A program made the translations under genes and the position numbers. Below the pieces are notes generated by a model. The model worked only from the letters and a program-made list of their open reading frames with translations. It made no database searches and was not told where the DNA came from. Shown here piece after piece: positions 31,337 to 46,823 of a DNA stretch of 64,000 nt (its first letter is position 1; each line of letters starts with the position of its first letter). Source of the stretch: Pseudomonadota bacterium (GTDB lineage: Bacteria > Pseudomonadota > Alphaproteobacteria > Rhizobiales > Aestuariivirgaceae); assembly GCA_020161855.1 (NCBI GenBank), contig JAIUNJ010000003.1:62001-126000 (forward strand), given 5' to 3'.

Positions 31337-32971
31337 TCAGCCCGCGAAGGATGGATCGCGCCACACCTCCGCGCCGCCAAGCAGCGTCAGCAGCACCGAG
31401 GTATCACCCAGCTCATAGTCACCGCAGGCCAGGATGTCGCGGTCGAGAATGATCACATCGGCAAGCATGCCGGGCGATAGCGCCCCGGTATCAGCCCCGC
31501 GCCAGGCCGCGCGCGCGGCATTCACCGTATAGCCCTTGAGGCATTCCGCGCGCGTCATGCGCTGCTCCGGCAGGAACACCGGATGCTTGCCCTTCTTGGC
31601 CGGAAGCTGGCGGGTCACGGCTGTTTCCATGATCTTGAAGGGATTGAGCGTGGAAACGCCCCAGTCGCTGGAGAGTGCATAGTCGGCACCGGCGTCGATG
31701 AGCGTGCGGAAGGCATACATGAGCTTGCCGCGCTCCGGCCCCATCATCGGCAGCGCCACATCATCCGTTGAGGCCTCATGCCGCGCCCACAGCGGCTGGA
31801 TGTTCATCATGGCGCCCAGCTGGTGGAAGCGCGGCGCGTCACGGGGATCAAGCGCCTGCACATGCGCAATCTGGTGCAGGCTCGGCCATGGTCCGTTCGC
31901 CCTCAGGGCCATCTCCAGCCCGTCGAGCGAGGCCCGCAACGCAAGATCGCCGATCACATGCACATGGATCTGGAAACGCGCCGCATCGAAAGCCGTGAAC
32001 ATGTCGTTGATCAACTGCGGCGGGAACATCAGCGGCGCATTGCCGCCAACTGCATCGCTGTAAGGCGCGATCATCGCCGCGGTGCGGTTCTCGAACACGC
32101 CATCCAGAAAGAACTTGGCGGAATGCACCTTGAACATCCCGTCGGAATGGGCCTCGCGCATGGCCAGCACGCGCTCCAGCGCGCCCTTCACGCTTTCATC
32201 CGGGTCGATCTTCGCCGTGGAGGCAACGCGCACGGTCAGGGCAGCCTCCGCCGCCATCTTGCCATAGACGCGCACATGGCGCTCCTTCACCATGGCGTCG
32301 AGCACGCTGGTGAAACCATGCCGGTTGCACAGCGCCTGGCCGTAGCGCACGCCGTCTTCATAGTCGCTGTCGGTCGGCTCCGGCATGAACTGCCGCACCC
32401 AGTAGATGGCGTCCTCATGCAGCATGCCCGTGGGCTCGCCGCTTGCATCCTTCACGATATGGCCGTTCGGCGGGTCTGGCGTATCGCGGGTAATCCCTGC
32501 TGCCGCCACGCCAAGGGAATTGAGGCAGGCGTTGTGGCCATCGGAGGCATAGATGAAGCAGGGCCGGTCCGGCACGGCGGCATCAAGCTCCTTCTTCGTC
32601 AGGTTCGCATCATGGAAAATTCCTGTGTACCAGCCGGTGCCATTCACCCAGCTGCCGGTATGCTTCGCGGCAAAATCGCGGATCAGCCGCTGCAGCTCGG
32701 AGATGCTGCGCGCCGCTTCCAGGTCAACGCCGCGGGCATGCTCGAAGCCAGAATCCTGCATGTGGATATGCGTGTCCTGGAATCCGGGCAGCACCATGCG
32801 CCCACCCGCGTCGATCACGCGTGCCCCCCGCCCGGCCAGTGCCCTTATCTCGGAGGTCGCCCCAACGGCCAGCACACGGCCGCCGCGCATTGCCAGCGCT
32901 TCCGCCCTGGGCCGCAGCGGGTCCATGGTGATGATATTGCCATTGATGAGAACGCAATCAGCCTGCGTCAT
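31337..32971 (-). CDS. YtcJ-like amidohydrolase (last gene of the 11-gene operon)
   Basis: A 544-residue metal-dependent hydrolase of the amidohydrolase superfamily. The N-terminal part is a beta-sandwich region (MTQADCVLINGNIITMDP), and the metal motif is DTHIHMQ at about 67-73. Further ligands lie within QIHVHVIGDLALR (near 330) and DWGVSTLNPF (near 440). The family acts on amide or cyclic amide bonds with varied substrates; none can be named. It overlaps the DddQ-like gene by 4 bp and would be transcribed last. Confidence 0.85.
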   Translation of the reverse strand: MTQADCVLINGNIITMDPLRPRAEALAMRGGRVLAVGATSEIRALAGRGARVIDAGGRMVLPGFQDTHIHMQDSGFEHARGVDLEAARSISELQRLIRDFAAKHTGSWVNGTGWYTGIFHDANLTKKELDAAVPDRPCFIYASDGHNACLNSLGVAAAGITRDTPDPPNGHIVKDASGEPTGMLHEDAIYWVRQFMPEPTDSDYEDGVRYGQALCNRHGFTSVLDAMVKERHVRVYGKMAAEAALTVRVASTAKIDPDESVKGALERVLAMREAHSDGMFKVHSAKFFLDGVFENRTAAMIAPYSDAVGGNAPLMFPPQLINDMFTAFDAARFQIHVHVIGDLALRASLDGLEMALRANGPWPSLHQIAHVQALDPRDAPRFHQLGAMMNIQPLWARHEASTDDVALPMMGPERGKLMYAFRTLIDAGADYALSSDWGVSTLNPFKIMETAVTRQLPAKKGKHPVFLPEQRMTRAECLKGYTVNAARAAWRGADTGALSPGMLADVIILDRDILACGDYELGDTSVLLTLLGGAEVWRDPSFAG

Positions 32972-33609
32972 GCCCGTTGCTCCAGTTGAGGCCAGTCGTT
33001 GCTGGGAATCACGCGCGCAAGCGCATCCGCATCACGGGTCCAGCAGTAGATGCAGAGAAAGGGAACAGCGCCGGTCATGGTCGCATGCGGTGCCCAGGGC
33101 GCGTTCCAGATGGGTTCATGGGCAGGCTTCCATTGCAGCTGATCGCCGGGCTTGAAACGCCAGCCATGGGGGCCGGTCAGCGGCGCATAGAGTTCGGGTG
33201 CTGCATGATGATGATCGCGATAGAAGATGTCGGGGGCGATCACGAAAAGCCCGAGGTCGAAATCCTCGGCGGCATGGAAGCCGCCATCGCCGATGAGCGA
33301 TGCGAAGGCATGGCCACCGGCAAAGGCAGCGCCGATGTCCTCGAGCGGATAGGCGTCGTAACCACCCCAGCGCAGGAACGGCCGTGCTGCTGCAATCGCC
33401 GCCGCCAGCTCTGGGGGTGTTGCCGCTGCCAGCGCGGCATCGAGATGCTGGCAGGCTGCGGTCTCAAGCGGCGTCATCTCCGTGAGTGCTCCCTGCCCCC
33501 ACGTCGCAAGCCCGCGCCGCACCTCCGCAACGCCCTCATGCTCAAAGCGCGCCAGGTAACTGTCGATCCCTGCGAGCAATGCCGCAATGGCCGATTCCGC
33601 TGCCATCAC
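32968..33609 (-). CDS. DddQ-like cupin protein (DMSP-lyase family)
   Basis: A 213-residue protein ending in a cupin barrel. The pattern Tyr130, His133-135, Glu139, Tyr141 (FYRDHHHAAPELY) closely resembles the metal-binding motif of dimethylsulfoniopropionate lyase DddQ, and a further histidine at 164 or 175 may complete the site. DddQ cleaves DMSP into dimethyl sulfide and acrylate; cupin relatives may act on other betaines by beta-elimination. Length fits the family. The gene is inside the 11-gene unit with 4-bp overlaps on both sides, so it acts in the same pathway. DMSP as substrate is only one possibility. Confidence 0.7.
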   Translation of the reverse strand: MMAAESAIAALLAGIDSYLARFEHEGVAEVRRGLATWGQGALTEMTPLETAACQHLDAALAAATPPELAAAIAAARPFLRWGGYDAYPLEDIGAAFAGGHAFASLIGDGGFHAAEDFDLGLFVIAPDIFYRDHHHAAPELYAPLTGPHGWRFKPGDQLQWKPAHEPIWNAPWAPHATMTGAVPFLCIYCWTRDADALARVIPSNDWPQLEQRA

Positions 33610-35624
33610 AGGGCGAGAGCCAGCACGCGCTCGCGCTTCTCGGCCACCTCAGGCTCGCCAAAAGCCCGTGCCGCCCTGTGTCCATCATAGACCGCCTGGG
33701 CGATGATGCCCGGTGCCTTGCAATCGCCGATGCGTTCGACCGTGAGGCCCAGTGCCTCCCGCAGTTCGTCCCACAGCGCCGTTGCGGGTTCACGCGAGGT
33801 GACCGCCACAAAGCCTTCACAGGCCAGTTCCTCGGTTCTGCCGGAATAGACGCAGCTCAGTTCGACGCCGCCCTTCACCAGACCCGACACCGATTTGCTG
33901 ACGATGACCTTCACGCCGGCCTCGATCAGGGCCGCCTGGATACGGGCCTGTTCGAAGGTATAGCCGGTAAACGGCGCCACCACGCCTTCTGACGAAACAA
34001 AGGTAACGTCATGCCCCTCTTTCGCCAGCAGTTCGGCAATCGACGTGGCCATGTAATAGTAATCGTCATCAAAGATCACCACCGGCCCCTTGGGCCGCTT
34101 GCCTGCCATGATATCATCCGGTGTCAATGTGCGGGCATCGTCGTAGCTCGCGATCGGCACCGGCGACATGCGGCCGAGGCCATTGCGCCGCCAGTCCGCA
34201 CCTGTCGCCAGCATCACATGCCTGGCTCCCGTCGCCAGGACATCCTCCGCCGTCATGGCGCTGCCCCGGAAGACTTCGACGGTTGAGAGCTTCTGGATCT
34301 GCTGCACCCGCCAGTCACGCACGCGCACCCATTCGGAAAGACGCGGCAGCTTTGCCTCCAGCGTCACGCGCCCGCCCAGTTCATTGCGGGCCTCTGCGAG
34401 CATCACGGGAACACCACGGCGACCGAGCGTCACCGCTGCTTCGAGCCCGGCCGGCCCCGAACCCACGATCAGGACCTGATCCTTGCGCGTGGCGACATTC
34501 ACCTTCTCGGGATGCCAGCCGCGCCGCCACTCCTCGCCCATGGTGGGATTCTGCGTGCAGCGGATCGGCACACCGAGATAGTCATTTGCGTAGCAGATGT
34601 TGCAGCCGATGCATTCGCGGATGTCGTCGAAGCGGCCTTCCTTGATCTTCTGCGGAATGAAGGGATCGGCAATCGAGGGCCGCGCCGCGCCGATGAGATC
34701 GATGATGCCGCGCTTCACCTGCGACAGCATCGTCTCCGGGCTGGTGAAACGGCCGACCGAGACCACGGGCTTCTTCGTCAGCGCGCGCACATGCGCGATC
34801 TCGCTTTCCAGTGAAGCTTCCTTGATGAAGCGCGAGGCGCCCATCTCGTGGCCGTAGTCGGGCACTGTCACGTCGAAAAGGTCGACATAGGATGCAACCC
34901 GCGACAGGAGGATGCTGCGCTCGTCCTTGCCGCTGCCGTCCTCGTCGGTCACTTCCACGCGCGTGGCAAGTGCGGCCTTTCCGTCCACCAGTTCGCGCGT
35001 ATCCTGCAGCACTTCGAGATAGAGGCGGGAACGGTTCTCCAGCACACCGCCATAGGCATCCTTGCGCTGGTTGACGCGCGGATCGAGAAACTGCGCCAGA
35101 AGATACGTGTGGGCAGCATAGACATACACAATGTCGAAGCCCGCCTGCAGCGCCCGCCGCACCGCCGCCTTGTGCCACTCGCGATATTGCTTGATGTCGG
35201 CGAGGTCCATGCGCTGGCACTGCCAGGGAGCCGCCGTCACCGGCATGGAATTGGGCGCGAGCCCCACGCGGCGCGAATGATGGTTGGGCGAGCGCTGCCC
35301 GCCATACCAGAGTTCGACACCGGCCAGCGCACCGTGGCCCTGCACATTCTCTACCATCAGCGCCATGTTCTTCACGTCGCCATCGTCCCAGAGGCTGCAG
35401 AAAGGTGCTGGAATATCGTCCGAGGTCGGATGAATGGAGCAGTATTCCGTATTGACTACGCCCCAGCCGCCTTCGGCCTTGATGCCACGCATGGTGGCAA
35501 GGGTTGCCGGCGACAGGTAACCCATGCCGGTGCAATGCGGCACCTGATAGAAACGGTTCGGTGCTGTCTTCGGGCCGATCTTCACAGGCTCGAACAGAAT
35601 GGCAAAGCGCGGGTCAAGGCTCAT
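33606..35624 (-). CDS. Trimethylamine-dehydrogenase-like FMN/[4Fe-4S] oxidoreductase (StcD/DgcA type)
   Basis: A 672-residue flavoprotein with an N-terminal old-yellow-enzyme barrel (about 1-330), a [4Fe-4S] motif (CIGCNIC-x11-C near 340-360) and a C-terminal pyridine-nucleotide/FAD-like region (VLIVGSGPAGLEAAVTLG near 390). VPHCTG places Cys31 where TMADH attaches its covalent FMN. Relatives demethylate tri- and dimethylamines, dimethylglycine or N-methylproline (StcD). It fits as the enzyme that strips remaining N-methyl groups after the Rieske oxygenases. It lies 24 bp after the small protein gene and overlaps the DddQ-like gene by 4 bp. Confidence 0.9.
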   Translation of the reverse strand: MSLDPRFAILFEPVKIGPKTAPNRFYQVPHCTGMGYLSPATLATMRGIKAEGGWGVVNTEYCSIHPTSDDIPAPFCSLWDDGDVKNMALMVENVQGHGALAGVELWYGGQRSPNHHSRRVGLAPNSMPVTAAPWQCQRMDLADIKQYREWHKAAVRRALQAGFDIVYVYAAHTYLLAQFLDPRVNQRKDAYGGVLENRSRLYLEVLQDTRELVDGKAALATRVEVTDEDGSGKDERSILLSRVASYVDLFDVTVPDYGHEMGASRFIKEASLESEIAHVRALTKKPVVSVGRFTSPETMLSQVKRGIIDLIGAARPSIADPFIPQKIKEGRFDDIRECIGCNICYANDYLGVPIRCTQNPTMGEEWRRGWHPEKVNVATRKDQVLIVGSGPAGLEAAVTLGRRGVPVMLAEARNELGGRVTLEAKLPRLSEWVRVRDWRVQQIQKLSTVEVFRGSAMTAEDVLATGARHVMLATGADWRRNGLGRMSPVPIASYDDARTLTPDDIMAGKRPKGPVVIFDDDYYYMATSIAELLAKEGHDVTFVSSEGVVAPFTGYTFEQARIQAALIEAGVKVIVSKSVSGLVKGGVELSCVYSGRTEELACEGFVAVTSREPATALWDELREALGLTVERIGDCKAPGIIAQAVYDGHRAARAFGEPEVAEKRERVLALAL

Positions 35625-35648
35625 GGCGGGCTCGCTCTCTTGGAAAGA

Positions 35649-35918
35649 TCAGGATCGGGGACTGGATGAAGGACGAGCCGGAACGCGCCCGGCCGGCCCA
35701 AGCTGGCGCAGCAGGGGAGCGGGGTCTTCGGCGTCGAGCCGCGATAGGATGCGATAGACCTCCAGCGCCTCGTCGCTGATCTCCCCTGCCATACGGAAAT
35801 ACATTGCAGCGGCATAGCGCACGCGGCCGGAACCTTCGCCGCCCAGCGGCGCATGCAGCAGTGCAAGTTGCATGTCGCGCTCCTCTGGCTTTGCATCCCT
35901 CTGCGGCATCCGGTCCAT
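35649..35918 (-). CDS. Small unknown protein inside the operon
   Basis: An 89-residue soluble protein of no recognised family. The N-terminal half is charged (MDRMPQRDAKPEERDMQLALL), the middle is predicted helical (VRYAAAMYFRMAGEISDEALEVYRILS), and the C-terminus is Pro/Arg/Ser rich. The ATG at 35916-35918 is 1 bp from the potC-like stop, so it is probably translated with it. The reading frame stays open upstream, but that part overlaps potC and is not used. Its place between the transporter and the TMADH-like gene suggests a pathway accessory role. Confidence 0.65.
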   Translation of the reverse strand: MDRMPQRDAKPEERDMQLALLHAPLGGEGSGRVRYAAAMYFRMAGEISDEALEVYRILSRLDAEDPAPLLRQLGPAGRVPARPSSSPRS

Positions 35919-35919
35919 G

Positions 35920-36759
35920 CTATTTGTTCGCCGCAATCGCCATCTGGATGTCGCGCTCGCGGCGGGCATCGGCCCGGTGCATGACCACCCCGGCGATGGC
36001 CACACCCACGCCGACGACAACGATCATCAATGTTGCCAGCGCATTGATGTCAGGGGTCACGCCAAGACGCACCTTGCTCCAGATCAGGATCGGCAAGGTC
36101 GTGGAGCCCGGTCCGGTCACGAAATTGGTGATCACCACATCATCGAGCGAGATGGTGAAGGCGAGAAGCCAGCCCGAGAGAATGGCAGGCGAGATGATTG
36201 GCAGGGTCACGTCGATCAGCACCTGCCAGGGCCGCGATCCCAGGTCCATCGCCGCCTCCTCGACGGAGGTGTCCATCGACGAGAGCCGCGCCTGCACGAT
36301 CGTCGCCACATAGGTCATCGAGAAAGTAATGTGCGCGATGGTGATGGTGGTGAAACCGCGGCTGCCCGGCCAGCCGATCCACTCGGCCATCATGATGAAA
36401 AGCAACAGCATCGAAATGCCGGTGATCACCTCCGGCATGATGAGCGGCGCCGTCACCAGCCCGGAGAACAGTGTGCGCCCGCGGAATTTCTTGAAACGCG
36501 CCAGTGCCAGTCCGGCCAGCGTGCCGAGGATGGTCGCGAAGGTCGCGCTGATCAGTGCGATCTTGAGCGACAGCAACGCTGCATTGATGATCTGGTCATT
36601 CTCGAAGAGCTTGCCATACCATTGCGTCGAGAAACCGCCCCACACCGTCGCCAGCCGCGAGCGGTTGAAGGAAAACACGATCATCGACAGGATGGGAATG
36701 TAGAAGAAGGCAAAGCCGAAGCAGAGGCAGGTGATCAGGAAGATGGGCCGCCGGTTCAT
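35920..36759 (-). CDS. ABC transporter permease, PotC type
   Basis: A 279-residue inner-membrane permease with six predicted helices. The coupling EAA loop (EEAAMDLGSRPWQVLIDVTLP) at about 170-190 is typical of polyamine/betaine-type PotC. It starts within the end of the potB-like gene (4-bp overlap). Together with the PotB-, PotA- and PotD-like genes it forms a complete importer whose substrate is probably the compound degraded by the operon. Confidence 0.92.
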   Translation of the reverse strand: MNRRPIFLITCLCFGFAFFYIPILSMIVFSFNRSRLATVWGGFSTQWYGKLFENDQIINAALLSLKIALISATFATILGTLAGLALARFKKFRGRTLFSGLVTAPLIMPEVITGISMLLLFIMMAEWIGWPGSRGFTTITIAHITFSMTYVATIVQARLSSMDTSVEEAAMDLGSRPWQVLIDVTLPIISPAILSGWLLAFTISLDDVVITNFVTGPGSTTLPILIWSKVRLGVTPDINALATLMIVVVGVGVAIAGVVMHRADARRERDIQMAIAANK

Positions 36760-37673
36760 GGCTTGCCCCCGGCCTGGGCTTTCGCCTCGAAGTGGTTGTA
36801 GGCCATCAGCGGCACCACCAGCAGCAGGAGCAGCGCCACCGCCACGGCAGAGGCCATCGGCCAGTGCCGCGCCGTCAGGAACTCGTCATTGATCACGCGC
36901 CCGATCATGGGGTCGGAAGCGTTGCCGACAAGGCTGGGGATCACCAGTTCACCGGACGCCGGGATGAAGACAAGAAGCCCGCCCGCGATGATGCCCGGAA
37001 TGGAAAGCGGCAGCGTCACATCCTTGAACACCTGCCAGGGCCTGGAGCCCAGATCCATCGCCGCTTCGTTCAGCGTCGTGTCGAGCTTCTCGAGGTTCGC
37101 ATAGAGCGGCAGGATCATGAAAGGCAGGTAGGAATAGACCAGCACCAGCACGACCGCGAAATTGCTGTTCATCATCGGAATGTTGCGGAAGGCCATGTCG
37201 GCCGGCAGCACGCTGTTCACGATCGCAGTCAGCAGCTTGTTGAACCAGCTGTTCGAGCCCATGAGCCCGATCCAGGCGTAGACGCGCAGCAGGAACGATG
37301 TCCAGAACGGCAGGATCACCAGCATGAGCAGGATGTTGCGCCAGCTCTTGTTCACCCGGGTGATGCCGAGCGCCATGGGATAGCCCACGATGAGGCAAAG
37401 GATCGTCGCCATGAAGGCGTTGATGATCGAGGTCGAATAGGCGCGGATATAGACCCAGTCGCCGACCAGCCGTCCGTAGTTCTCGAAGGTCACATAGGGA
37501 AAGTCCGGCAGGAAGCCGACCGGCGGCGACGTCGCCGTGCGCTCGGCAAAGCTCATCACCACCACGATGGCGAAGGGAATGAGAAAGAAGAAGACCAGCC
37601 AGAAATACGGTATGGCGATGATGCTCTTGCTCCAGCCATCCCGGTTGAACCATGTGTTGAACCACGACGGCAT
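36756..37673 (-). CDS. ABC transporter permease, PotB type
   Basis: A 305-residue permease with six predicted helices. EAA loop: NEAAMDLGSRPWQVFKDVTLP near 213-233. I start at the ATG at 37671-37673, which has a GAGG site, giving MPSWFNTWFNRDG; the frame extends 23 codons upstream into the ATPase gene. It lies 8 bp after the ATPase gene and overlaps the PotC-like gene by 4 bp. Substrate is inferred from the context only. Confidence 0.92.
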   Translation of the reverse strand: MPSWFNTWFNRDGWSKSIIAIPYFWLVFFFLIPFAIVVVMSFAERTATSPPVGFLPDFPYVTFENYGRLVGDWVYIRAYSTSIINAFMATILCLIVGYPMALGITRVNKSWRNILLMLVILPFWTSFLLRVYAWIGLMGSNSWFNKLLTAIVNSVLPADMAFRNIPMMNSNFAVVLVLVYSYLPFMILPLYANLEKLDTTLNEAAMDLGSRPWQVFKDVTLPLSIPGIIAGGLLVFIPASGELVIPSLVGNASDPMIGRVINDEFLTARHWPMASAVAVALLLLLVVPLMAYNHFEAKAQAGGKP

Positions 37674-37681
37674 GGCGGACC

Positions 37682-38794
37682 TCACTGCGTCAGCAGAAGC
37701 GCCGAGGATGGCTCGAAGCTGAGCCAAACCTTGTCTTCCCACTGCGCCACGCGCTGGTCTTCCCGCACGCGGATGGCGTTGACGCTGTTGACCGAGACTA
37801 CGGTGCCGCTCGCCATCTTCACGCGATAGAGCGAATCCTTGCCGAAATAGCCGAGGTCCTTCACCGTGCCGGGAAAGGCATTGCCGCCCTTCGGCCTCGC
37901 TCGCGAAATGGCAATCTTCTCGGGCCGCACCGCAACGGTGATGGCCGCACCCTTCTCTGCCACGGCATCGGAGGCGAGCAGCACCTTGCCGCCCAGTTCC
38001 GGCACATCGGCCTCGACCTCGCCCTTGGTGGCTGCCGTCACCTTGCCTTCAAACATGTTGATCGAACCGATGAAGCCCGCCACGAACTTGCTTGCGGGAT
38101 ATTCATAGATCGATGTCGGCGTGCCCACCTGGCGGATCACGCCACGGTCCATGACCGCGATGCGGCTCGCCAGCGTCATCGCCTCTTCCTGGTCATGCGT
38201 CACCACCACGAAGGTAATGCCGGTGCGGTCCTGGATGTTCATGATCTCGAACTGCGTGTGCTCACGCAGCTTCTTGTCGAGGGCGCCCAGCGGCTCGTCG
38301 AGCAGCAGGAGCTTGGGCTGGCGGGCAAGGGCGCGCGCCAGTGCCACGCGCTGCCGCTGTCCGCCGGAAAGCTGGTGCGGCTTGCGGCCGGCCAGTTCCG
38401 TGAGCTTCACGAGATCGAGCATCTGCTTCACGCGGTCGCGGCGGTCGCCCGCCGTCATGTTGCGCTCATGCTTCAGGCCATAGCCCACGTTCTTCTCCAC
38501 CGACATGTGCGGGAAGAGCGCGTAGGACTGGAACATCATGTTGACGGGCCGGTCATAGGGGGCGATCCCCGCCATGTCCTGCCCGTCGATGAAGATGCGG
38601 CCGGCACTCGGCATCTCGAATCCGGCCAACATGCGCAGCAGCGTGGTCTTGCCGCAGCCGGAGCCGCCGAGAAGGGCGAAGAGCTCGCCCTTCCCGATAT
38701 CGAGCGAGACATTGTCAACCGCAGCGAAGGTGCCAAACTTCTTGGTGACGTTCTCGATGCGGATGAACGGCGCCGAACCCCCGGATTCTGCCAT
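37682..38794 (-). CDS. ABC transporter ATP-binding protein, PotA type
   Basis: A 370-residue ATPase of a spermidine/putrescine-type importer. Walker A GGSGCGKTT near 38-46, signature LSGGQRQRVALARAL near 143-157, Walker B LLLLDEPLGALD near 162-173, and the switch histidine in VTHDQEEAM near 199. A C-terminal TOBE-like domain (about 290-370) is present. It starts 4 bp after the PotD-like gene's stop. Confidence 0.94.
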   Translation of the reverse strand: MAESGGSAPFIRIENVTKKFGTFAAVDNVSLDIGKGELFALLGGSGCGKTTLLRMLAGFEMPSAGRIFIDGQDMAGIAPYDRPVNMMFQSYALFPHMSVEKNVGYGLKHERNMTAGDRRDRVKQMLDLVKLTELAGRKPHQLSGGQRQRVALARALARQPKLLLLDEPLGALDKKLREHTQFEIMNIQDRTGITFVVVTHDQEEAMTLASRIAVMDRGVIRQVGTPTSIYEYPASKFVAGFIGSINMFEGKVTAATKGEVEADVPELGGKVLLASDAVAEKGAAITVAVRPEKIAISRARPKGGNAFPGTVKDLGYFGKDSLYRVKMASGTVVSVNSVNAIRVREDQRVAQWEDKVWLSFEPSSALLLTQ

Positions 38795-38798
38795 GATC

Positions 38799-39917
38799 TC
38801 AACCGGTCTTGATCGTCTGCCACACCCGCGTCATCACGCGGTCCTGTTCGGTGCTGTAGGGCTTCGGCGCCCACAGCCGCTTCATCACTTCCTCGTTGGG
38901 ATAGACCGCCGGATTGGCAAGCACCGAAGGATCGACGAACTGGTCGGCCTTGGTATTGGCGTTGGCGTAGTTCGTGAAGTTGGTGCACTTGCCGACCACT
39001 TCCGGCTGCAGCATATATTCCAGGAACTTGTGGGCGTTGTCCTTGTTCTTTGCGTCGGCCGGGATGCACCAGTTGTCGGACCATGCGGGCGCACCCGTCT
39101 TGGGCACGAAATAGGCGAGGTCGATCTTGACGCCCGCTTCCTCGGCGCGCGTCTTGGCCGTGGAGTAATCGCCCGACCAGTTGTTGATCACGCAGAGCTC
39201 GCCATTGGGAATGGCGTTGAGATAGTTCGTGTTGTCGAAGGTCTTGATATATTGCCGGATCGGCTTGAAGGCCTCGGCCACCTTGTCGTAGTCGGCCGTG
39301 TTGGTCGTGTCGCCATCGATCCCCAGATACTTGAGGATCATCGGCATCACGTCGGTGGGACTGTCGAGAATGGAGATGCCGCAGTCGGCGAGCTTCGCTG
39401 CGTTCTCGGGCTTGAACAGGAAATCGAGGGTCTCGAGGTCGGCGCCGGGCAGGCGCTCCTTCACCATATCGAGGTTGAAGGTGAAGCCGACAGAGCCCCA
39501 CATATAGGGCAGGCTGTGCTCAAGGCCCGGATCGTAATTGTCCATGATGCGCAGCACTTCCGGGTTCAGGTTACCCCAGCTCGGCAGCTTGCTGCGGTCA
39601 AGCTTGTCATAGATGTTGGCCTTCTGCATTTCCGGAAAGCCGAGGCCGGACTGGATTACCACGTCATAGCCGGTAGACCCTGCCAGCATCTTGGCCTGCA
39701 TCTCTTCGGCCGAGCTGTAGGTGTCATAGGTCACGGCAATGCCCGAGGCCTTCTGGAAATCCTCGATCGTCGTTTCGCCGATATAGTCGGCCCAGTTGTA
39801 GATGTTGAGAACGGCATCCTGCGCCTTGGCCCGCTGCACGAAGGGCATGGCGAGCGCTGTGCTGCCGAGCCCCGCCAGGGCGGTACGCCTGGAAATCCTG
39901 AGAAGAGAAGATGGCAT
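38799..39917 (-). CDS. Periplasmic substrate-binding protein, PotD type
   Basis: A 372-residue exported binding protein. The N-terminus SLLRISRRTALAGLGSTALA looks like a Tat signal (RR followed by a hydrophobic stretch), ending near AKAQ. The mature protein begins VLNIYNWADYIGETTIEDFQKASG, characteristic of PotD-type proteins that bind polyamines, and relatives that bind betaines. An AGGAGG site 7 bases from the ATG at 39915-39917 supports the start. It lies 36 bp after the second Rieske gene. Confidence 0.92.
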   Translation of the reverse strand: MPSSLLRISRRTALAGLGSTALAMPFVQRAKAQDAVLNIYNWADYIGETTIEDFQKASGIAVTYDTYSSAEEMQAKMLAGSTGYDVVIQSGLGFPEMQKANIYDKLDRSKLPSWGNLNPEVLRIMDNYDPGLEHSLPYMWGSVGFTFNLDMVKERLPGADLETLDFLFKPENAAKLADCGISILDSPTDVMPMILKYLGIDGDTTNTADYDKVAEAFKPIRQYIKTFDNTNYLNAIPNGELCVINNWSGDYSTAKTRAEEAGVKIDLAYFVPKTGAPAWSDNWCIPADAKNKDNAHKFLEYMLQPEVVGKCTNFTNYANANTKADQFVDPSVLANPAVYPNEEVMKRLWAPKPYSTEQDRVMTRVWQTIKTG

Positions 39918-39953
39918 CGACTTGTCCTCCTTGGTGGGCACGAAAGGCCCTTG

Positions 39954-41153
39954 TTATGCACGCCTCATGCGGGCGTTGAGAGCTTCAAGATCATCTGTTT
40001 GCGGAGCTTTGTCCAGCTTCATAACCGGCAGAAGCTGGCGCAATTCGTCGTGGTGGGCGCGCACGCCCTTCTCCAGATCGGAGAGGTAGAAGCCGTCGAA
40101 GGCCGATGATTTCATCGACTCGTTGGACCAGGTGGAAAGCTGGATATCCTCCTCCACCGTCTCCCGGTCGATGCGATAGGAGAGATAGCGCGCCATGCGC
40201 AGCGCGCGGTCTTCTTCCGGGTAGCGGTAGATCATGCCGCGCACTCGCGTGCGGTCCGGCGCGATCGGCAGTTCCTGGTAGAACTGCACTGTCTCCGGCG
40301 TGGTGATGATCACGGCATTGGGGAAAATGCCGTAATAGGCCCAGAGATTGCGCCGCTCCGCCGGCAGCCAGGAAGGCCCGCCCGCCCATTTCAGGTAGTT
40401 GCGCACGCTCCAGCGCCGCCCGGCATGGGGCTGGAAGGTTCCCTTCGACACATTGAGTCCGCCCGGAAGCGAAACGTCATAATAGGTCGAGCCATAGAGA
40501 TCCTGCAGCGCCGGATGCGCCATGGCCACATGGTAGCCTTCATTGTCGACATCCCGCACCGACTTCCAGTTCACTGGCAGTTCCTGGCCCCAGTTGGTGC
40601 CGGCAGGCACCATCGTCTCCATGCGATGCGGCGCCACATCTTCGAGATAGGGCGAGAGATAATCGGCGACCGAACCTTGCGGCCCCGCCTTGAAGCGCAG
40701 GAAGATGAAGCCCTGCCAGATCTCGCTTTCGATGGGCTTCAGCCCGAAGGCATGCTTGTCGAGCGGCGGATAGCTCTGCGGCCGCGCCGCACCACGCAGC
40801 GTGCCATTGAGATTGTAGACCCAGCCGTGGAAGGGGCAGACCAGCGCATGCTTGCAATGGCCCTTGTCGCCGGTCACCACGCGCGAACCGCGGTGGCGGC
40901 AGAGATTGTGAAAGGCCCGCACCGTTCCGTCATCGCCACGCACCACGAAGGCGCGCTCGTCACCGAGATCGAAGGTCAGGTAGTCGCCATTTTTGGCGAT
41001 GTCATTCACATGGCCGACGATCTGCCAGTGCGTGAGCATGGCCTCTTCCGTCTCGAGCTTGAGCATGGCAGCACTGTGATAGGTCCAGGCCGGCAGGCCG
41101 CGGCGGTCCCAGTCCTGCCCTGCGTCGTTCCCCTTGCGCTCCATCCTGTCCAT
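39954..41153 (-). CDS. Rieske non-heme iron oxygenase, catalytic subunit (second copy)
   Basis: A 399-residue aromatic-ring-hydroxylating-type oxygenase alpha subunit. The Rieske motif CRHRG...CPFHGW (Cys/His at about 86-106) binds the [2Fe-2S] cluster, and DVDNEGYHVAMAH near 201-213 supplies the Fe(II) histidines. Members of this branch demethylate glycine betaine, stachydrine or carnitine-type compounds. No ferredoxin reductase is encoded in the operon. It lies 9 bp after the first Rieske gene, from which it is clearly different in sequence. Confidence 0.9.
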   Translation of the reverse strand: MDRMERKGNDAGQDWDRRGLPAWTYHSAAMLKLETEEAMLTHWQIVGHVNDIAKNGDYLTFDLGDERAFVVRGDDGTVRAFHNLCRHRGSRVVTGDKGHCKHALVCPFHGWVYNLNGTLRGAARPQSYPPLDKHAFGLKPIESEIWQGFIFLRFKAGPQGSVADYLSPYLEDVAPHRMETMVPAGTNWGQELPVNWKSVRDVDNEGYHVAMAHPALQDLYGSTYYDVSLPGGLNVSKGTFQPHAGRRWSVRNYLKWAGGPSWLPAERRNLWAYYGIFPNAVIITTPETVQFYQELPIAPDRTRVRGMIYRYPEEDRALRMARYLSYRIDRETVEEDIQLSTWSNESMKSSAFDGFYLSDLEKGVRAHHDELRQLLPVMKLDKAPQTDDLEALNARMRRA

Positions 41154-41162
41154 GCCTGCCTC

Positions 41163-42308
41163 CTACGCCACCTGCCGCCGCACCCAGTTCTGGAAACCGT
41201 GCACGTCGAATTCCTGCGGCATCAGCCGCCCGCCCTTGAAGGCTGAGGATTTCAGCCCCTTCTGGTTCATCTCGCAGGCCGCTCCGTCCTGCATCATCAC
41301 CATGGTGGCAAAGTCCGTCACCTGCACCGGGTCGAAGCCGGGCATTTTCAATGTCTCCTCGGGAAACAGCCATTCGGCGCAGAGCTCGGTGCGCTCGGGC
41401 CCGAGCGGCCTCAGCGTCACGATCCGCACATAGTCCACATGAGCCACGATGTAGCAGGTGGGATAGAGCGTCACGAAGGTCTGGCCCTTCTCGCGCTCCT
41501 CCGCCGTCAGCTTTGGAAACTCGGGCCCACAGGGCAAGCCGTTCATCGTCCAGCTCTTCGCACCGGCCTTCAGCTCTGTGCCGCTGGCGCCCTGCTCCGG
41601 TGTCCAGTCCGGCGCCTCATTCGCCGCCATGTAACCCTTGCCGTAGATCGGCACCATCTCGCAGAGCTCCGGGTGAATGCCGGGGCAATGCAGGCATTCG
41701 TTGTAATTCTCCCAGAAGATCTTCCAGTTGCAGGCCATCTCCTTGACCAGCCTGTGCCCGGAAACGAGGTCTTCCATCGGCCAGTTGTCGAGCACGCTGG
41801 CGCCAAGGTCGGGTGCCTTCTCGAACGCCGGCGGATCGTATGCGAGGCACACAAAGATAAGACCGTTCCACAGCTTCACGTGAACCGGGATGAGCCCGTA
41901 ATACGCCTTGTCGAAATCCGCCGTCTCGGAAACAAAGGGTGTGCGCACCAGCTTGCCCGCCAGGTCATAGCTCCAGGCGTGATAGGGGCAGGTGATAAGC
42001 TTGGTCTTCAGCTTCTGCTCATGCGCGAGGCAGATTTCCGAACCCCGGTGGCGGCAGACATTGTGAAAGCACGAAACCTGCCCGGCCTGATCCTTCACCA
42101 GCATCAGGTTCTCGCCCGCCACCTCGATGCGGCGCAGCGTCATTGCAGGCAAATCTTTGACCCGGCCCACATGCACCCACTGCCGCGCCCAGATGCGCTT
42201 CAGCTCCAGTGCATGATGGTCCGCATCGTAGTACCACGCAGCAGGCAGCGTCTCCGGGCAATGATCCAGAAGCGGCGAGCCTTTCGGGGTCTGCGTGACC
42301 TGGTTCAT
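41163..42308 (-). CDS. Rieske non-heme iron oxygenase, catalytic subunit (first copy)
   Basis: A 381-residue oxygenase subunit. The Rieske motif CRHRG...CPYHAW is near 85-110 and the iron motif NYNECLHCPGIHPEL near 200-214. I use the ATG at 42306-42308, which has GAGG just upstream, and lies 4 bp after the aminotransferase stop; the frame continues upstream inside the aminotransferase gene. The layout resembles GbcA/stachydrine demethylase, which oxidise N-methyl groups to release formaldehyde, but the substrate is unknown. Confidence 0.9.
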   Translation of the reverse strand: MNQVTQTPKGSPLLDHCPETLPAAWYYDADHHALELKRIWARQWVHVGRVKDLPAMTLRRIEVAGENLMLVKDQAGQVSCFHNVCRHRGSEICLAHEQKLKTKLITCPYHAWSYDLAGKLVRTPFVSETADFDKAYYGLIPVHVKLWNGLIFVCLAYDPPAFEKAPDLGASVLDNWPMEDLVSGHRLVKEMACNWKIFWENYNECLHCPGIHPELCEMVPIYGKGYMAANEAPDWTPEQGASGTELKAGAKSWTMNGLPCGPEFPKLTAEEREKGQTFVTLYPTCYIVAHVDYVRIVTLRPLGPERTELCAEWLFPEETLKMPGFDPVQVTDFATMVMMQDGAACEMNQKGLKSSAFKGGRLMPQEFDVHGFQNWVRRQVA

Positions 42309-42312
42309 GACC

Positions 42313-43695
42313 TCACACCGTGTGCTTGCCGAGGGCCTCCGGCGCCGTGGCGCCCTTCTTCTTTTCGGCCGCCAGTTGTTCAAGCGTCAGGTCGACGCCG
42401 GTCTCGAAGGCATGCAGCGTGTCCTTGAAGCAGCTTTCGTCATGGGCTTCGCAGATGAACAGCGGCTCGCGCGAGTCCGGTTCGCAGATGATGTATTGAT
42501 CGTGCAGATGCCGGGCGAGCTTGTCGTAGAAGCTGTAGTCCGAGGTCTTCCAGGCGCGGTAGTCCTTCGGTGGCTCGGGCGCGAAGAACACACCGAACAT
42601 CGAAGGATGGCCCGAGAAGGAATGCACGATCTTGCGCCGGTCGAGGATCTGCTTGATGCCCGCCTGCAATCGCGTGCCGTAGTCGGCAATCGTCTGCAGC
42701 GCCGGCGTCTCGTCGAGAATCTCCAGGCATTTTTCCGTCGCCGCCAGCGACACCGAATGCGCCGTATAGGTGCCGCCATGGGCAGCACCACCATAGCGGA
42801 ACGTGCGCATCACCTCTTCTCGGCCGCAGACCGCGGAGATCGGATAGCCATTGCCCATGGCCTTGGCGAAGGTGCAGATATCCGGCACCACGCCATGGAT
42901 CGACTGGATGCCGCCCTTGGCCACGCGGAAGCCGGTCTTCACCTCGTCGATGATCAGCAGCACGCCGTATTTCGTGCAGAGCTCGCGCGCCAGTTTCACA
43001 AATTCCGTCGTCGCCGCGATGGCGCAGCAATTGCCCATCATCGGTTCGATGAGCATCGCCGCAAGGTCGTTGTGGTGGCGCTTGAAGATGTCTTCCAGCC
43101 GGTTGGCGTCGTTCATGGGCGTCAGATGCACCATGTCCTTCAGCCGCTGCGGCACACCCTTCGAATAGGGCGCCTTCACCGGATCGAGGCCGGAGCCCGG
43201 GTCCCAGCTGTCCATGCTCGCCATCCACATGGCGGCGTCGAACAGGCCATGATAGCTGCCCTCGACGAGGATGTAGCTCTCCTTGCCCGTATGGGCCCGG
43301 GCCAGCCGCAGCGCCGCCATCACGGCTTCGGTGCCGCTGTTGGAGAAGCGCACGAGGTCGACACCCTTCACCATCTTGGCGATGCGGTCGGCGACTGTCA
43401 GTTCCCGCTCGGTCGAGAGCGCGAAAACGCCGCCGACTTCCATGCCCTTGCGGGCCGCCTCGTCCACCCGGTCATCGGCATAGCCGAGGATCGCCGGGCC
43501 ATAGCCGAGTCGGTAATCCACGTAGCAGTTGTCGTCGATGTCCCAGGTCCGGCCGCCCTTGCCCTTCTTCACATAGACCGTGCGGTCGTCGCCCCAGTAG
43601 CGGAAGGTGGACGACACACCGAGCGGCAGGCGCTTCAGGGCCTTCTGGAACTGGGCATTGGACTTGGTCAGGTCGCGGGCATTGCGGCGGAGCAT
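42313..43695 (-). CDS. Class III PLP-dependent aminotransferase (GSA-like), first gene of the operon
   Basis: A 460-residue aminotransferase of the glutamate-1-semialdehyde aminomutase-like branch. NSGTEAVMAALRLARAHTGKES (about 110-131), IDEVKTGFR (about 240) and the PLP lysine in FAKAMGNGYPI (about 276) are visible. It would convert an omega-amino group or move an amino group of a pathway intermediate. It is first in the 11-gene operon, divergently arranged to the TetR gene with a 187-bp promoter gap containing a palindrome. Confidence 0.9.
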   Translation of the reverse strand: MLRRNARDLTKSNAQFQKALKRLPLGVSSTFRYWGDDRTVYVKKGKGGRTWDIDDNCYVDYRLGYGPAILGYADDRVDEAARKGMEVGGVFALSTERELTVADRIAKMVKGVDLVRFSNSGTEAVMAALRLARAHTGKESYILVEGSYHGLFDAAMWMASMDSWDPGSGLDPVKAPYSKGVPQRLKDMVHLTPMNDANRLEDIFKRHHNDLAAMLIEPMMGNCCAIAATTEFVKLARELCTKYGVLLIIDEVKTGFRVAKGGIQSIHGVVPDICTFAKAMGNGYPISAVCGREEVMRTFRYGGAAHGGTYTAHSVSLAATEKCLEILDETPALQTIADYGTRLQAGIKQILDRRKIVHSFSGHPSMFGVFFAPEPPKDYRAWKTSDYSFYDKLARHLHDQYIICEPDSREPLFICEAHDESCFKDTLHAFETGVDLTLEQLAAEKKKGATAPEALGKHTV

Positions 43696-43771
43696 GAAAT
43701 CCTCGGTTTGGGGCCTGGGTGGGCGGCCTCATCGGGGCCGCCGATTGCTATTGTTAAAGTCTCCCTTGATT

Positions 43772-43787
43772 TTGACTGCCAAGTCAA
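43772..43787. promoter_or_regulatory. Palindromic operator TTGACT-GCCA-AGTCAA in the aminotransferase/TetR gap
   Basis: Six-bp perfect arms separated by 4 bp, with further TTGATT/TCAAAA flanks, lie between the aminotransferase start (43695) and the TetR-like start (43883). Its location and dyad form suit binding by the divergently encoded TetR/BetI-like protein. Confidence 0.6.
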
Positions 43788-43882
43788 TCAAAATGAATGC
43801 TGCAGTGCAACATGGCAATGGGCCTTGGCGACGCTGCGCTGGCCGTTATGTTCCCTCGCTTGCCGAGACCCGCAGAATCACC

Positions 43883-44536
43883 ATGAATCTCTCCGTTCAG
43901 GCCGAAAAAGTGCTGCCCGCCTCCCGCAAGGCGAGCAAGGAAGTGCGCCGCCAACAGCTCATCGAGGCCACCATCGAGACCCTGGCCCGCAAGGGCTATG
44001 CCCAGCTCACCCTCACGGATGTGGCAGTCACGGCCGGCGTCTCCCACGGGCTTGTGAACTTCCACTTCCAGAGCAAGGAAAAGCTCTTCGCCGAAACCCT
44101 GCTGCACCTTGCAGCCGAGTACCAGGCCAACTGGCAGGCCTATCTCGCCACCGCCGGCACCGCCCCTGCCCTTCAGCTTGATGCCTTGCTGCGCGCCGAT
44201 CTCGATCCGAAGGTCTGCGCACCCGTCAAGGTGATCTGCTGGGCCGCCTTCTGGGGCGAGTCCCAGAGCCGTCCCATCTACCAGCAGGAATATGGCGCCA
44301 ACGACGAGGCCTACAGCGCCATGCTGGCCGAAATCTGCGAACGCCTCACCGCCGCGGGCGGCTATGCCCTCGATGGCCACATGGCCAGCCGCGTCTTCCG
44401 CGCCATCGGCGATGGCGTCTGGCAGGACATCGCCTTCTCCGCCCGGCCCTACTCGCTCGATGAAGCCCGCAAGACCATGTACGCAGGCGCCGCGGCACTC
44501 TTTCCGAAACACTTCACGGCAACCGGCCTGCGCTGA
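43883..44536 (+). CDS. TetR/BetI-like transcriptional repressor
   Basis: A 217-residue TetR-family regulator. The helix-turn-helix (about 25-70) contains RRQQLIEATIETLARKGYAQLTLTDVAVTAGVSHGLVNFHF, which closely resembles the choline-responsive BetI. The rest is an all-helical ligand domain. I start at the ATG at 43883 although its ribosome site is weak; the longer upstream frame has no TetR sequence. Divergent position and the palindrome at 43772-43787 suggest it controls the adjacent operon and binds its substrate or an intermediate. Confidence 0.88.
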   Translation: MNLSVQAEKVLPASRKASKEVRRQQLIEATIETLARKGYAQLTLTDVAVTAGVSHGLVNFHFQSKEKLFAETLLHLAAEYQANWQAYLATAGTAPALQLDALLRADLDPKVCAPVKVICWAAFWGESQSRPIYQQEYGANDEAYSAMLAEICERLTAAGGYALDGHMASRVFRAIGDGVWQDIAFSARPYSLDEARKTMYAGAAALFPKHFTATGLR

Positions 44537-44942: not shown

Positions 44943-45566
44943 TTACATTCCGAAAAGACTCGTGATGAAGGCCTTGGCACCGGCATAGAGCGCCGCCGAC
45001 ACCGCGAAGAGCAGAAGCCCGGTTGCCGCCGCCATGGCGTAACCCACCAACACCGCGATGCCGTCGCGTTCCGCGAGGCCCAGCGCCAGGCAGGCGATGG
45101 CCGCGCCCGGCAGCATGTTCACCAGCGGGATGGGCAGGAACAGGATCACCGCCAGCACGAAGGTGACAATGCCGATCACGCGTTCGGCAAGGTTTGACGA
45201 CACCGCGACGCCGAAACGCGGCTTCAGCACGCGCTCAAAGCGATTGAGGAAGGGCGAGGCCTTGGTTTTGAAGACATCGGCGAAATGCCCGGAAATCGGG
45301 CGCCGGCGCACCGATTCCGGTAGCCATATTGTTTGTCGGCCAAGCATCAGCTGGAAGGTCAGGAAGACCAGCGGCAGCCCCAGAACCGCCGACGTCCCCG
45401 GCGGCAGCGGCACCACATTGGGAATGGCGAAGATGAACATCAGGGCCCCGAAGGCCCGTTCGCCAAACATGTCGATCAGCTTGCCCACGGTAAACTCCGT
45501 GCTGCCGTCGATCGATGCTACAATGTCGGAAAGGCGGCGTGGTTTCTCTTTTGGCGCGGCGTTCAA
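44943..45566 (-). CDS. ExoD-family membrane protein
   Basis: About 207 residues with four or more membrane helices (near 55-95, 130-155 and 160-200). RRLSDIVASID, GERAFGALMFIFAIPNVVPLPPG and FLPIPLVNMLPGAAIACLALGL are typical of ExoD, a family linked in rhizobia to exopolysaccharide production and alkaline tolerance. No ATG exists near the 5' end. I propose the TTG at 45566 (AGGA upstream) over the TTG at 45620, which has no ribosome site. Single gene with no clear partner. Confidence 0.83.
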   Translation of the reverse strand: MNAAPKEKPRRLSDIVASIDGSTEFTVGKLIDMFGERAFGALMFIFAIPNVVPLPPGTSAVLGLPLVFLTFQLMLGRQTIWLPESVRRRPISGHFADVFKTKASPFLNRFERVLKPRFGVAVSSNLAERVIGIVTFVLAVILFLPIPLVNMLPGAAIACLALGLAERDGIAVLVGYAMAAATGLLLFAVSAALYAGAKAFITSLFGM

Positions 45567-45726
45567 ATCGGGGTCCTGTATCCGGTTATCTCTTTGGAGG
45601 TTGCCCGCCGATTTTGTCAAATGGACAAAGGTTCAGGGGCCACCCGGAAAGAGGCACTGTCTAGCGCGCAGGCCAGGCTCATGGGCTAGGTGACAGTACC
45701 GATGGCTTCGTGCCGTTCAGCGCGGT

Positions 45727-46323
45727 TCAGGAACCGATGAGTTTGCGCAGCTTGCCGAGCGCCACCGCGTCCGGCTCGTGGACATCAAGCGTTCCCCGGA
45801 ATGCGCCACTGGCATCGTAAAGGTAGACGCCTGCCGAATGATCCATGGTGTAGCTGCCATCGGCCGTCGGAACCTTCTTGTAGTAGAACTTGTAGGCCTT
45901 GGCGAAAGCCTCGAGCTGCGTGTTCGTCCCCGTCAGGCCGACAAAGCGTTCATCGAAAGCCTCGACATAGACATTGAGCAGATCCGGCGTATCGCGCTCG
46001 GGATCGACAGAAACCAGGATCACCTTGAGGCGGTCCGCGGCAGGCCCCAGCGCCTTCATGAACTCCGCCATGCGGGTCATGGTCGTCGGGCAGATGTCCG
46101 GGCAGGATGTGAAGCCGAAGAACATCGCCCGTGCCGTTCCGGCAAAGTCCTTTTCTGTTACTGCCCGCCCGGTGTGATCGGTCATGGAGAAGGCGCCACC
46201 GATCTCGAAGGCAACCGGCTTCAGCGTCTCCTCGCTGCTGCCGCGAAAGCTGTAAAACGCCAGAGCGCCGGAGGCCATGGCCACCGCAACCCAGAGCATG
46301 ATCCGCAGGGTGCGCACGCTCAT
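45727..46323 (-). CDS. Sco1/SenC-family copper chaperone
   Basis: A 198-residue membrane-anchored thioredoxin-like protein with one N-terminal helix (about 7-24). The copper ligands are CPDIC (Cys near 75 and 79) and the histidine in YTMDHSAG (near 165). Sco1 delivers copper to the CuA centre of aa3-type oxidases, or acts as a thiol reductase. It overlaps the PCu(A)C gene by 4 bp, a pairing known from copper delivery to cytochrome oxidase. Confidence 0.93.
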   Translation of the reverse strand: MSVRTLRIMLWVAVAMASGALAFYSFRGSSEETLKPVAFEIGGAFSMTDHTGRAVTEKDFAGTARAMFFGFTSCPDICPTTMTRMAEFMKALGPAADRLKVILVSVDPERDTPDLLNVYVEAFDERFVGLTGTNTQLEAFAKAYKFYYKKVPTADGSYTMDHSAGVYLYDASGAFRGTLDVHEPDAVALGKLRKLIGS

Positions 46324-46823
46324 CCGCTGTGCCCGGAATGCAGTTGCTTCGGCGCCGCTTCGCCTTCCGGAATGATCGGCACATCGAAATCGACCGTGCC
46401 CGCATCGCGGAACACCATTGTCACCGGCAGGGCCGTTGCTTCATCAACGGCACGTGAAATGCCGGAGAGCAGGATGTGAAAGCCGCCCGGCTTCATGACC
46501 ACTTCGCCATGCGCTGGAAGCGGCAGGCCGAAGGGCAAGGGCCGCTCGTTCTTTTCGCCATCAGCACTCGTGTCTTCGTTGACCGATGTCGCGCCCGCCG
46601 CCGGACTGTCGACGGCAATCAGCAATTCCTCGTCGCCGGACTTGTTGTGGACCGTGAGATAGACGGCGGCCTTGCGCTCATCGCCCGGCAGCAGCCGGGC
46701 CCAGGCCTGTTCGACAACGATGTCGCCGAGCGACCATGGCCCGCCGGGGCTGGTGTTCGCGGCGGCCGTCGGGATGCCTGCCAGGGCAAACAGCAAAGCC
46801 ACGGCCGGGCGCCACTTGCTCAT
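46320..46823 (-). CDS. PCu(A)C-type periplasmic copper chaperone
   Basis: A 167-residue secreted protein (signal peptide about 1-22). AAVYLTVHNKSGDEELLIAVDSP (about 52-74), HGEVVMKPGGFHILLSGI (about 103-120) and PVTMVFRDAGTVDFDVPI (about 131-148) define the PCu(A)C family, whose His/Met residues bind Cu(I). The C-terminus is His-containing (KQLHSGHSG). Overlapping start with lspA and stop with the Sco1 gene implies one transcript. Confidence 0.9.
   Translation of the reverse strand: MSKWRPAVALLFALAGIPTAAANTSPGGPWSLGDIVVEQAWARLLPGDERKAAVYLTVHNKSGDEELLIAVDSPAAGATSVNEDTSADGEKNERPLPFGLPLPAHGEVVMKPGGFHILLSGISRAVDEATALPVTMVFRDAGTVDFDVPIIPEGEAAPKQLHSGHSG

Follow-up and report, generated by a model that had tools for sequence, protein, structure and literature searches.

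Methylated amines and betaines make up large pools of nitrogen and one-carbon units in soil and sea, and many of the importers and oxygenases in this field are orphans. In the breakdown of glycine betaine, the Rieske oxygenase GbcA acts together with a scheme of dimethylglycine demethylation, and StcD is a trimethylamine dehydrogenase (TMADH)-like enzyme of stachydrine demethylation. CntA frees trimethylamine from carnitine with the partner reductase CntB, and some group-V quaternary-ammonium Rieske enzymes carry a Cys-pair motif at the mononuclear iron (PMC10952381). In this study, we analysed an eleven-gene operon in a 64,000-nucleotide stretch (the window) of an alphaproteobacterium of the family Aestuariivirgaceae (assembly GCA_020161855.1, contig JAIUNJ010000003.1, positions 62,001 to 126,000). 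On balance, we consider it probable that this is a substrate-induced operon through which nitrogen, one-carbon units and carbon are obtained from a cationic short-chain compound of the quaternary N-methylated kind.

The operon is not a chance array, as orthologous gene strings recur in other genomes. It is a minus-strand unit running from 43695 to 31337, in which eleven co-directional genes face a divergent BetI-like TetR gene; the open reading frame (ORF) listing and the Pfam and NCBIfam scans agree with the families and the direction given in a preliminary description of this DNA. With corrected starts, the spacings are, in order, 4, 9, 12, 4, -61, -4, 1, 24, -4 and -4 bp. The 61-bp overlap between the ATPase and permease B belongs to the listed GTG start, and an in-frame ATG at 37673 would leave a gap of 8 bp. 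For RoA, the ATG at 42308 is more likely than the TTG at 42383, and for TetR, translation favours the ATG at 43883 over the GTG at 43607. The small protein of the preliminary description does exist, but the ORF first proposed for it (35621-35896) lies in the wrong frame: its codon-position GC (0.53/0.67/0.75) is unlike that of the other operon genes, whereas the gene at 35649-35918 (0.77/0.53/0.69) resembles the cupin gene (0.72/0.53/0.69). The features are as follows.

42313..43695, minus strand: AT3, class III aminotransferase, glutamate-1-semialdehyde (GSA) aminotransferase-like, first operon gene (PF00202, 6e-62)
41163..42308, minus strand: RoA, Rieske oxygenase of predicted quaternary-ammonium type with E-C-L-H-C motif (PF00355/PF00848)
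39954..41153, minus strand: RoB, second Rieske oxygenase, with Glu at the bridging position and without the Cys pair (N-E-G-Y-H-V; PF00355/PF00848)
38799..39941, minus strand: PotF-type periplasmic binding protein, SBP (library scans, PotF residue comparison)
37682..38794, minus strand: ABC ATPase, PotG/PotA-like, with TOBE domain (PF00005, PF08402, TIGR01187)
36756..37742, minus strand: ABC permease B, PotH-like, possibly beginning at the ATG at 37673 instead (PF00528)
35920..36759, minus strand: ABC permease C, PotI-like (PF00528; NF007889 below cutoff)
35649..35918, minus strand: small protein of 89 amino acids with an unnamed domain, G-S-G-R-x-R-Y-x-A-A-M ... L-E-x-Y-R (codon-position GC, homologues)
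33606..35624, minus strand: TMADH/histamine-dehydrogenase-like Fe-S flavoenzyme (PF00724; 3k30 8e-191, 1djn 2.2e-164)
32968..33609, minus strand: DMSP-lyase-like cupin carrying H-x-H-x3-E-x-Y and, further on, another H (PF16867, 5.8e-23)
31337..32971, minus strand: Amidohydro_3 metal hydrolase, last operon gene (PF07969, 1.7e-86)
43883..44536, plus strand: divergent BetI-like TetR repressor (PF00440, PF13977)
43773..43790, no strand assigned: predicted operator TGATTGACTTGGCAGTCA (minus-strand reading), between TetR and AT3 (pattern match)

In the mechanism that we propose, the BetI-like TetR protein would leave its site, TGATTGA-N4-TCARTCA, once the compound is present, and the PotF-type ABC importer would bring the compound in. 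RoA and RoB would then oxidise the quaternary nitrogen, with the methyl group leaving as formaldehyde, and the TMADH-like flavoenzyme would take the remaining N-methyl, one protein doing the work of the FADox1, FADox2 and GcvT proteins of relatives. AT3 would turn the freed primary amine into a semialdehyde, and the cupin and the amidohydrolase would finish the carbon skeleton. The families, the gene order, the co-occurrence, the alternative demethylase-type genes in the same place and the recurring operator-like site are seen in the sequence; the individual reactions and their sequence, the binding of the repressor and the nature of the substrate are predictions. Import, two oxidative demethylations, a further demethylation and subsequent breakdown had been suggested in the preliminary description, and this course, together with a transamination, is still the best reading, with the TMADH-like gene in the place of FADox2 and GcvT.

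Demethylation is supported mainly by the place of the TMADH-like gene, since in 13 of the 14 AT3 loci outside the window it is FADox2 and GcvT that lie nearby. Twelve of these loci came from class and order searches, one (L090) from a plasmid search and one (L058) from a TMADH search; AT3 itself was found in 7/385 class genomes (E 1e-100) and 7/297 order genomes (E 1e-150), the window's own genome being counted in both. At fixed identity thresholds, with L090 as the source of the FADox, GcvT and methyltransferase queries and L091 as that of the CoA ligase query, the 14 loci hold TetR (13), FADox1 (12), FADox2 (13), GcvT (13), CoA ligase (8), cupin (3), RoA, RoB and amidohydrolase (2 each) and a TMADH-like gene (1). 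Four of the loci (L093-L096) are from one genus, with the FADox/GcvT genes several kb from AT3 and behind another TetR gene; in L092, AT3 lies at the contig end with none of the partner genes. FADox1 and FADox2 match FAD amine-oxidase models and GcvT matches a folate-binding domain, its best model being a trimethylamine N-oxide demethylase, below its cutoff. Together they look like a set for folate-linked demethylation. Among 30 scored candidates, the window genome gave no relative of FADox1 at E 1e-10; the same query detected FADox1 at 77% and 74% identity in the congeners G566 and G608, where it adjoins AT3. No FADox/GcvT remnants were found between permease C and the TMADH-like gene. From this gene content, the TMADH-like gene is a probable non-orthologous replacement of the FADox1/FADox2/GcvT set.

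The TMADH-like gene also looks like a newcomer in the operon, because it is rarely found with the operon families among TMADH-anchored loci (AT3 1, RoB 3, amidohydrolase 1, RoA 0 and cupin 0 in the best 80 of 591 loci). Its closest relatives (L003-L011, L014, L036, L184-L186) have, of the window's families, only importer/ATPase, TetR or GcvT-like neighbours, and these only in some. Four TMADH-like genes occur in the window genome, the operon copy included, and unlinked ones at 62-63% identity occur in G515 and G450. The closest solved structures by sequence are, in order, histamine dehydrogenase, 6l6j and TMADH. Alignments bear out the family and the covalent-FMN cysteine named in the preliminary description, as the protein carries the context RFYQVPHC and a CxxCxxC...C cluster motif, of which we take the RFYQVPHC Cys to be the FMN attachment and the other cysteines to be 4Fe-4S ligands. 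In a Defluviimonas metagenome-assembled genome (L004 8477-12043), an MttB-family methyltransferase gene is directly followed by a TMADH-like gene (66% identical).

Both oxygenases have the two Rieske ligand motifs, CxH and CxxH, and the catalytic region NWK...H. The closest solved structure of RoA is 3vca, presumably that of Stc2, at a distance (3e-45); for RoB, CntA comes first and then 3vca. RoA has a Cys-x-x-Cys beside the mononuclear iron and RoB is without it. The E-C-L-H-C motif is present in 6/6 RoA sequences at >=49% identity, the window included, and three relatives at 26-28% identity have E-C-Y-H-C; D-N-E-G-Y-H-V is found in 17/17 RoB sequences at >=48% identity and in window RoB. 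By its motif, RoA would be of the group-V quaternary-ammonium Rieske type, and its substrate class is predicted on this basis. The GbcA model is the best NCBIfam match of both proteins, at 183 and 135 bits vs a cutoff of 670.

The SBP keeps W37, D39, Y40, S85, W244, D247, D278 and Y314 of E. coli PotF and carries the changes E185D, F276W and S38A. Against the list of ten residues that we take to contact the PotF ligand, 8/10 are identical, three aspartates among them, and E185D and F276W differ. The SBPs of L090, L103, L151, L152 and L153 also keep W37, D39, Y40, W244, D247, D278 and Y314, with W at 276; S85 is Ala in L151 and L153. Such a pocket would best suit a ligand that bears one or two cationic amines. 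Each of the four importer proteins has a polyamine model as its best NCBIfam match: the ATPase scores 378 bits with TIGR01187 potA (above the cutoff of 355.6), permease C 338 bits with NF007889 (under 476) and the SBP 328 bits with the PotF equivalog (under 636). These best matches and the conserved PotF diamine residues, together with a histamine dehydrogenase as the best solved relative of the TMADH-like enzyme, would suit the catabolism of polyamines or diamines, with an unmethylated diamine being imported, the histamine-dehydrogenase-like enzyme and AT3 deaminating it, and the Rieske enzymes hydroxylating carbon. We regard this as unlikely, as RoA bears the group-V quaternary-ammonium motif, the repressor and the predicted operator look BetI-like, and the TMADH-like gene stands in place of a GcvT-containing set, whose folate-linked GcvT suits demethylation over deamination.

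AT3 is closest in structure databases to GSA aminomutases, and three of its residues (the PLP Lys, the SSxxR Arg and the C-terminal Glu) line up with residues of those enzymes, from which we presume their roles. Its best NCBIfam models, GntE (441 bits, cutoff 525) and HemL (340 bits, cutoff 527), both stay below cutoff. Because the GSA-aminomutase Arg and Glu are kept, a substrate with a carboxylate and a terminal amine is favoured for AT3. In L105, genes for an aldehyde dehydrogenase and a CoA ligase come after the AT3 set, and an acyl-CoA dehydrogenase (ACAD) accompanies that set in L105-L108, which would fit a semialdehyde as the product of AT3. A glutarate route via glutaryl-CoA dehydrogenase in L107 was rejected, since the ACAD there matches other ACADs better. 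A SAM-dependent methyltransferase gene, odd for a demethylating system, lies near the TetR gene or the operon end in 4/14 AT3 loci (L090 26816-27589, the source of the query; L103 4024-4806; L105 4319-5158; L107 16991-17863).

Although the operon is real, it is modular, and its parts occur in other combinations in relatives. Largely the same gene string is present in a Fuscovulum ytuae plasmid and in congener G566. In G515, G450 and G588, of the same genus, TetR is followed by RoA, RoB, SBP, ATPase, permeases and small/cupin (in L151 and L152, permease B lacks a call of its own), with no AT3 at E 1e-150 and no amidohydrolase at E 1e-130. G608 (L104) combines AT3, the FADox set, cupin and amidohydrolase with an importer that is unrelated; it has no RoA (the best match, 25%, is its RoB), and its RoB is elsewhere in the genome. 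RoB occurs in 23/297 order genomes (E 1e-80, own included). On plasmids, RoB (E 1e-70) and FADox1 (E 1e-120) share the same 7/7 records (three Shinella, Ensifer adhaerens, Rhizobium sp. SL42, Fuscovulum ytuae and Parasedimentitalea marina). A different class III aminotransferase is present in those examined from Shinella, Ensifer and Rhizobium, and the importer permeases, compared for Shinella and Ensifer, are only 32-35% identical; for Parasedimentitalea, the annotation names an aminotransferase, two FAD oxidoreductases, an aminomethyltransferase and ring-hydroxylating enzymes. As these plasmid loci differ in both importer and aminotransferase, RoB and FADox1/FADox2/GcvT are used with more than one of each. 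Thus, the eleven-gene operon of the preliminary description splits into modules, with the TMADH-like gene unstable, and these modules recombine and several share an operator.

Such modularity raises the alternative that the operon is a mosaic in which a single switch controls two pathways, RoA-RoB-importer-small/cupin dealing with one compound in full and AT3-TMADH-amidohydrolase with another. The former set does stand alone, without AT3 or amidohydrolase, in G515, G450 and G588, where FADox1 is absent (G515, at E 1e-30) or represented only by ~32% relatives (G450 and G588), and G388 carries the AT3 set (L107) and the amidohydrolase (L213) on separate contigs. However, the same kind of operator precedes both sets, the two occur together in L090, L103 and the window, and the cupin is found with either (L104; L151-L153), which makes the mosaic rather unlikely in our estimation.

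The operon is probably BetI-type-regulated, as judged from the repressor family and its putative site. TetR has a BetI-type C-terminal domain (PF13977), and its score with the BetI model TIGR03384 (95 bits) is below the cutoff of 201. At <=1 mismatch, TGATTGA-N4-TCARTCA is present in the window and in 10/36 loci scanned (L090, L091, L103, L104, L107 with two, L151, L152, L153, L213 and L013), and in none of 20 mononucleotide shuffles of the window. These sites precede both kinds of module and a separate amidohydrolase operon; in G388, a perfect site accompanies the amidohydrolase and a polyamine-type ABC importer (L213), on a different contig from the AT3 set (L107). Among the AT3 loci, 5/14 have a site. 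A scan of six genomes gave 14 places at <=1 mismatch, 6 of them at operons; of the 8 others, three are in G566 and 5 were viewed, four falling within mechanical ORFs and one (G450:C21) on the 5' boundary of such an ORF. The window's own genome has two further sites, both inside ORFs. As a control, the reversed pattern had no match in five genomes and one on each strand in G450. Between betI and betT of E. coli lies TGATTGGACGTTCAATAT, with 3 mismatches to the pattern, and because of this similarity, the predicted operator may be BetI-like and a resident BetI could also read it. A promoter scan gave 0 sites and a terminator scan 15 vs 8.0 expected. Between the predicted operator and the AT3 start lies a GC-rich stem-loop of 9 pairs (43722-43742).

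The small protein has no Pfam match at E 5. Its family profile matches ten loci among those scanned, the window copy (L176) included, most of the compared loci having been collected through these same gene families. The domain is fused to the cupin N-terminus in L090 (Fuscovulum ytuae), L103, L151, L152 and L153, and is free-standing in L164 (Shinella), L166 (Rhizobium), L150, L032 and the window, where the TMADH-like gene sits between the small gene and the cupin. All ten loci have RoB, up to ~12 kb away, and RoB loci such as L051, L081, L148, L149 and L165 gave no match to the profile. In the cupin tree, the fused L103 groups with the unfused L104 (0.934) and then with the window copy (0.902). 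Because fused and unfused copies are mixed, the fusion was apparently split, or made more than once; the tree is compatible both with a fused gene split in the window and with separate genes kept there.

The motif H-x-H-x3-E-x-Y, which we take to comprise the metal ligands and catalytic Tyr of the dimethylsulfoniopropionate (DMSP) lyases DddQ/W/K, is present in 13/13 aligned cupins. This motif and the PF16867 match would be expected of a true DMSP lyase, with the remaining genes serving related osmolytes. Nevertheless, such a route is very improbable: the matches to solved DMSP lyases are weak (5cu1 2.5e-6; DddQ 5jso 1.8e-5), no NCBIfam model matches the cupin at 0.001, and none of the eleven genes belongs to a family known to us for acrylate use. 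Moreover, the cupin was found in 12/297 order genomes (E 1e-25, own included), with >=48% identity in 7, and in 6 of these 7 it adjoins RoA/RoB or AT3 genes; beside the seventh (G627, L211), no such genes were recognised. One doubtful idea is that the cupin and its small partner form a C-N lyase or isomerase acting on the Rieske product in a new betaine or methylated-diamine pathway, the small domain being a new oxygenase-linked subunit; if true, this would give DMSP-lyase chemistry a nitrogen counterpart. The amidohydrolase occurs in 4/297 order genomes (E 1e-130, own included); its NCBIfam matches are weak and far below cutoffs, and its solved relatives are two uncharacterised hydrolases. 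A second cupin, 38% identical, lies near another ABC ATPase in the window's own genome (L214 2450-3088, contig C18). On a plasmid of Mesorhizobium sp. 131-2-1 (L167 8156-12621), a 52% cupin relative stands by a desaturase-type protein, a 2Fe-2S ferredoxin, an FAD oxidoreductase and a PanB-like hydroxymethyltransferase, and in Rhizobium sp. SL42 the RoB/FADox locus has a similar MocE-type set (L166 979-4473) within a few kb.

Because most PotF diamine-binding residues are kept, a methylated diamine, a methylated basic amino acid or an omega-amino-acid betaine is favoured over glycine betaine. The substrate classes that fit best would be methylated basic amino acids or diamines (dications) and C4-C6 omega-amino-acid betaines such as gamma-butyrobetaine and delta-valerobetaine; glycine betaine and choline fit less well. 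Of the N-methylated or betaine-like compound of the preliminary description, N-methylated is thus the best reading, and betaine-like was not established, given these residues. Among the matches listed from the open-licence literature, preprints not included, there was no description of the operon and no operon paper for comparison with homarine, another substrate that was considered.

A number of observations weigh against the use of an N-methylated compound as proposed here. Within the eleven-gene operon there is no Rieske reductase gene, and the cupin and amidohydrolase are without an assigned reaction step; both occur in G627 (L211 and L212) without recognised partner genes. Nearly the same PotF pocket is found in SBPs of loci without RoA (L051, L056, L105, L106, L108), so that by comparison of residues the pocket is not special to the window operon, and the gene set of G608 suggests that not all loci need serve the same substrate. 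Among solved structures, the TMADH-like enzyme is nearest to histamine dehydrogenases, which carry out deamination. Y60, Y169 and H172 of TMADH are kept in the window enzyme, and W264 is changed to Y, W355 to D and D267 to E; in this numbering, we take Y60, W264 and W355 to be the aromatic bowl and Y169, H172 and D267 the triad. Despite this likeness and the changed bowl, the enzyme is predicted to demethylate because it probably replaces the FADox/GcvT set. The window genome, ~92% complete, which limits a clean picture of that replacement, has nine other GcvT-like places, the best 34% identical (FADox2 was not sought there). The operator pattern was read from some of the matched loci, which were chosen for carrying these gene families, and 9/14 AT3 loci (L058, L092-L096, L105, L106, L108) are without a site at <=1 mismatch. 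The nine GcvT-like places and the nine AT3 loci without an operator slightly weaken the proposal in favour of the diamine and mosaic alternatives.

The operon appears to be a new arrangement of known kinds of enzymes that also includes a small domain without a name and a cupin of an orphan branch. Gene order, a probable enzyme replacement and a recurring operator-like site link these orphan genes, so that one induction or ligand screen could jointly assign RoA, RoB, AT3, FADox1/2, the cupin branch and the small domain in several alphaproteobacterial groups. By its gene content, the operon sits within a metal-handling neighbourhood: heavy-metal P-type ATPases flank the region (27968-30265 and 47302-49449), and the copper genes SCO1/SenC (45730-46323) and PCu(A)C (46323-46823) and an ExoD gene (44946-45620) are nearby.

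Compared with the known systems, the operon is similar to E. coli PotFGHI, the putrescine importer, in gene set and most ligand residues, and differs from it in E185D, F276W and S38A, with only the ATPase subfamily model TIGR01187 passing its cutoff. The repressor shares with E. coli BetI the BetI-type C domain, and the E. coli betI-betT region holds a perhaps comparable site, but the repressor's score falls short of the BetI cutoff (95 vs 201 bits) and no bet genes are among the eleven. The cupin has the Pfam family and the metal and Tyr motif of DddQ/DddW, whereas its similarity to them is weak, a small domain is fused or paired with it in six loci (window, L090, L103, L151-L153) and its gene context is of amine type. 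As in glycine betaine demethylation, a Rieske step would precede flavin N-demethylation; the Rieske pair, however, is far below the GbcA cutoff, and the operon adds an aminotransferase and PotF-type import, neither of which, to our knowledge, belongs to glycine betaine demethylation. CntA is the closest solved relative of RoB, with Glu at the bridging position, but RoB is without the Cys pair and the operon has no reductase gene. Finally, unlike the stachydrine (proline betaine) system, the operon adds a second Rieske protein, a PotF-type importer, a class III aminotransferase, a cupin with its small partner and an amidohydrolase, and Stc2 and RoA are distant relatives (3e-45); like that system, it unites a group-V Rieske enzyme (there Stc2) and a TMADH-like flavoenzyme in one predicted catabolic unit.

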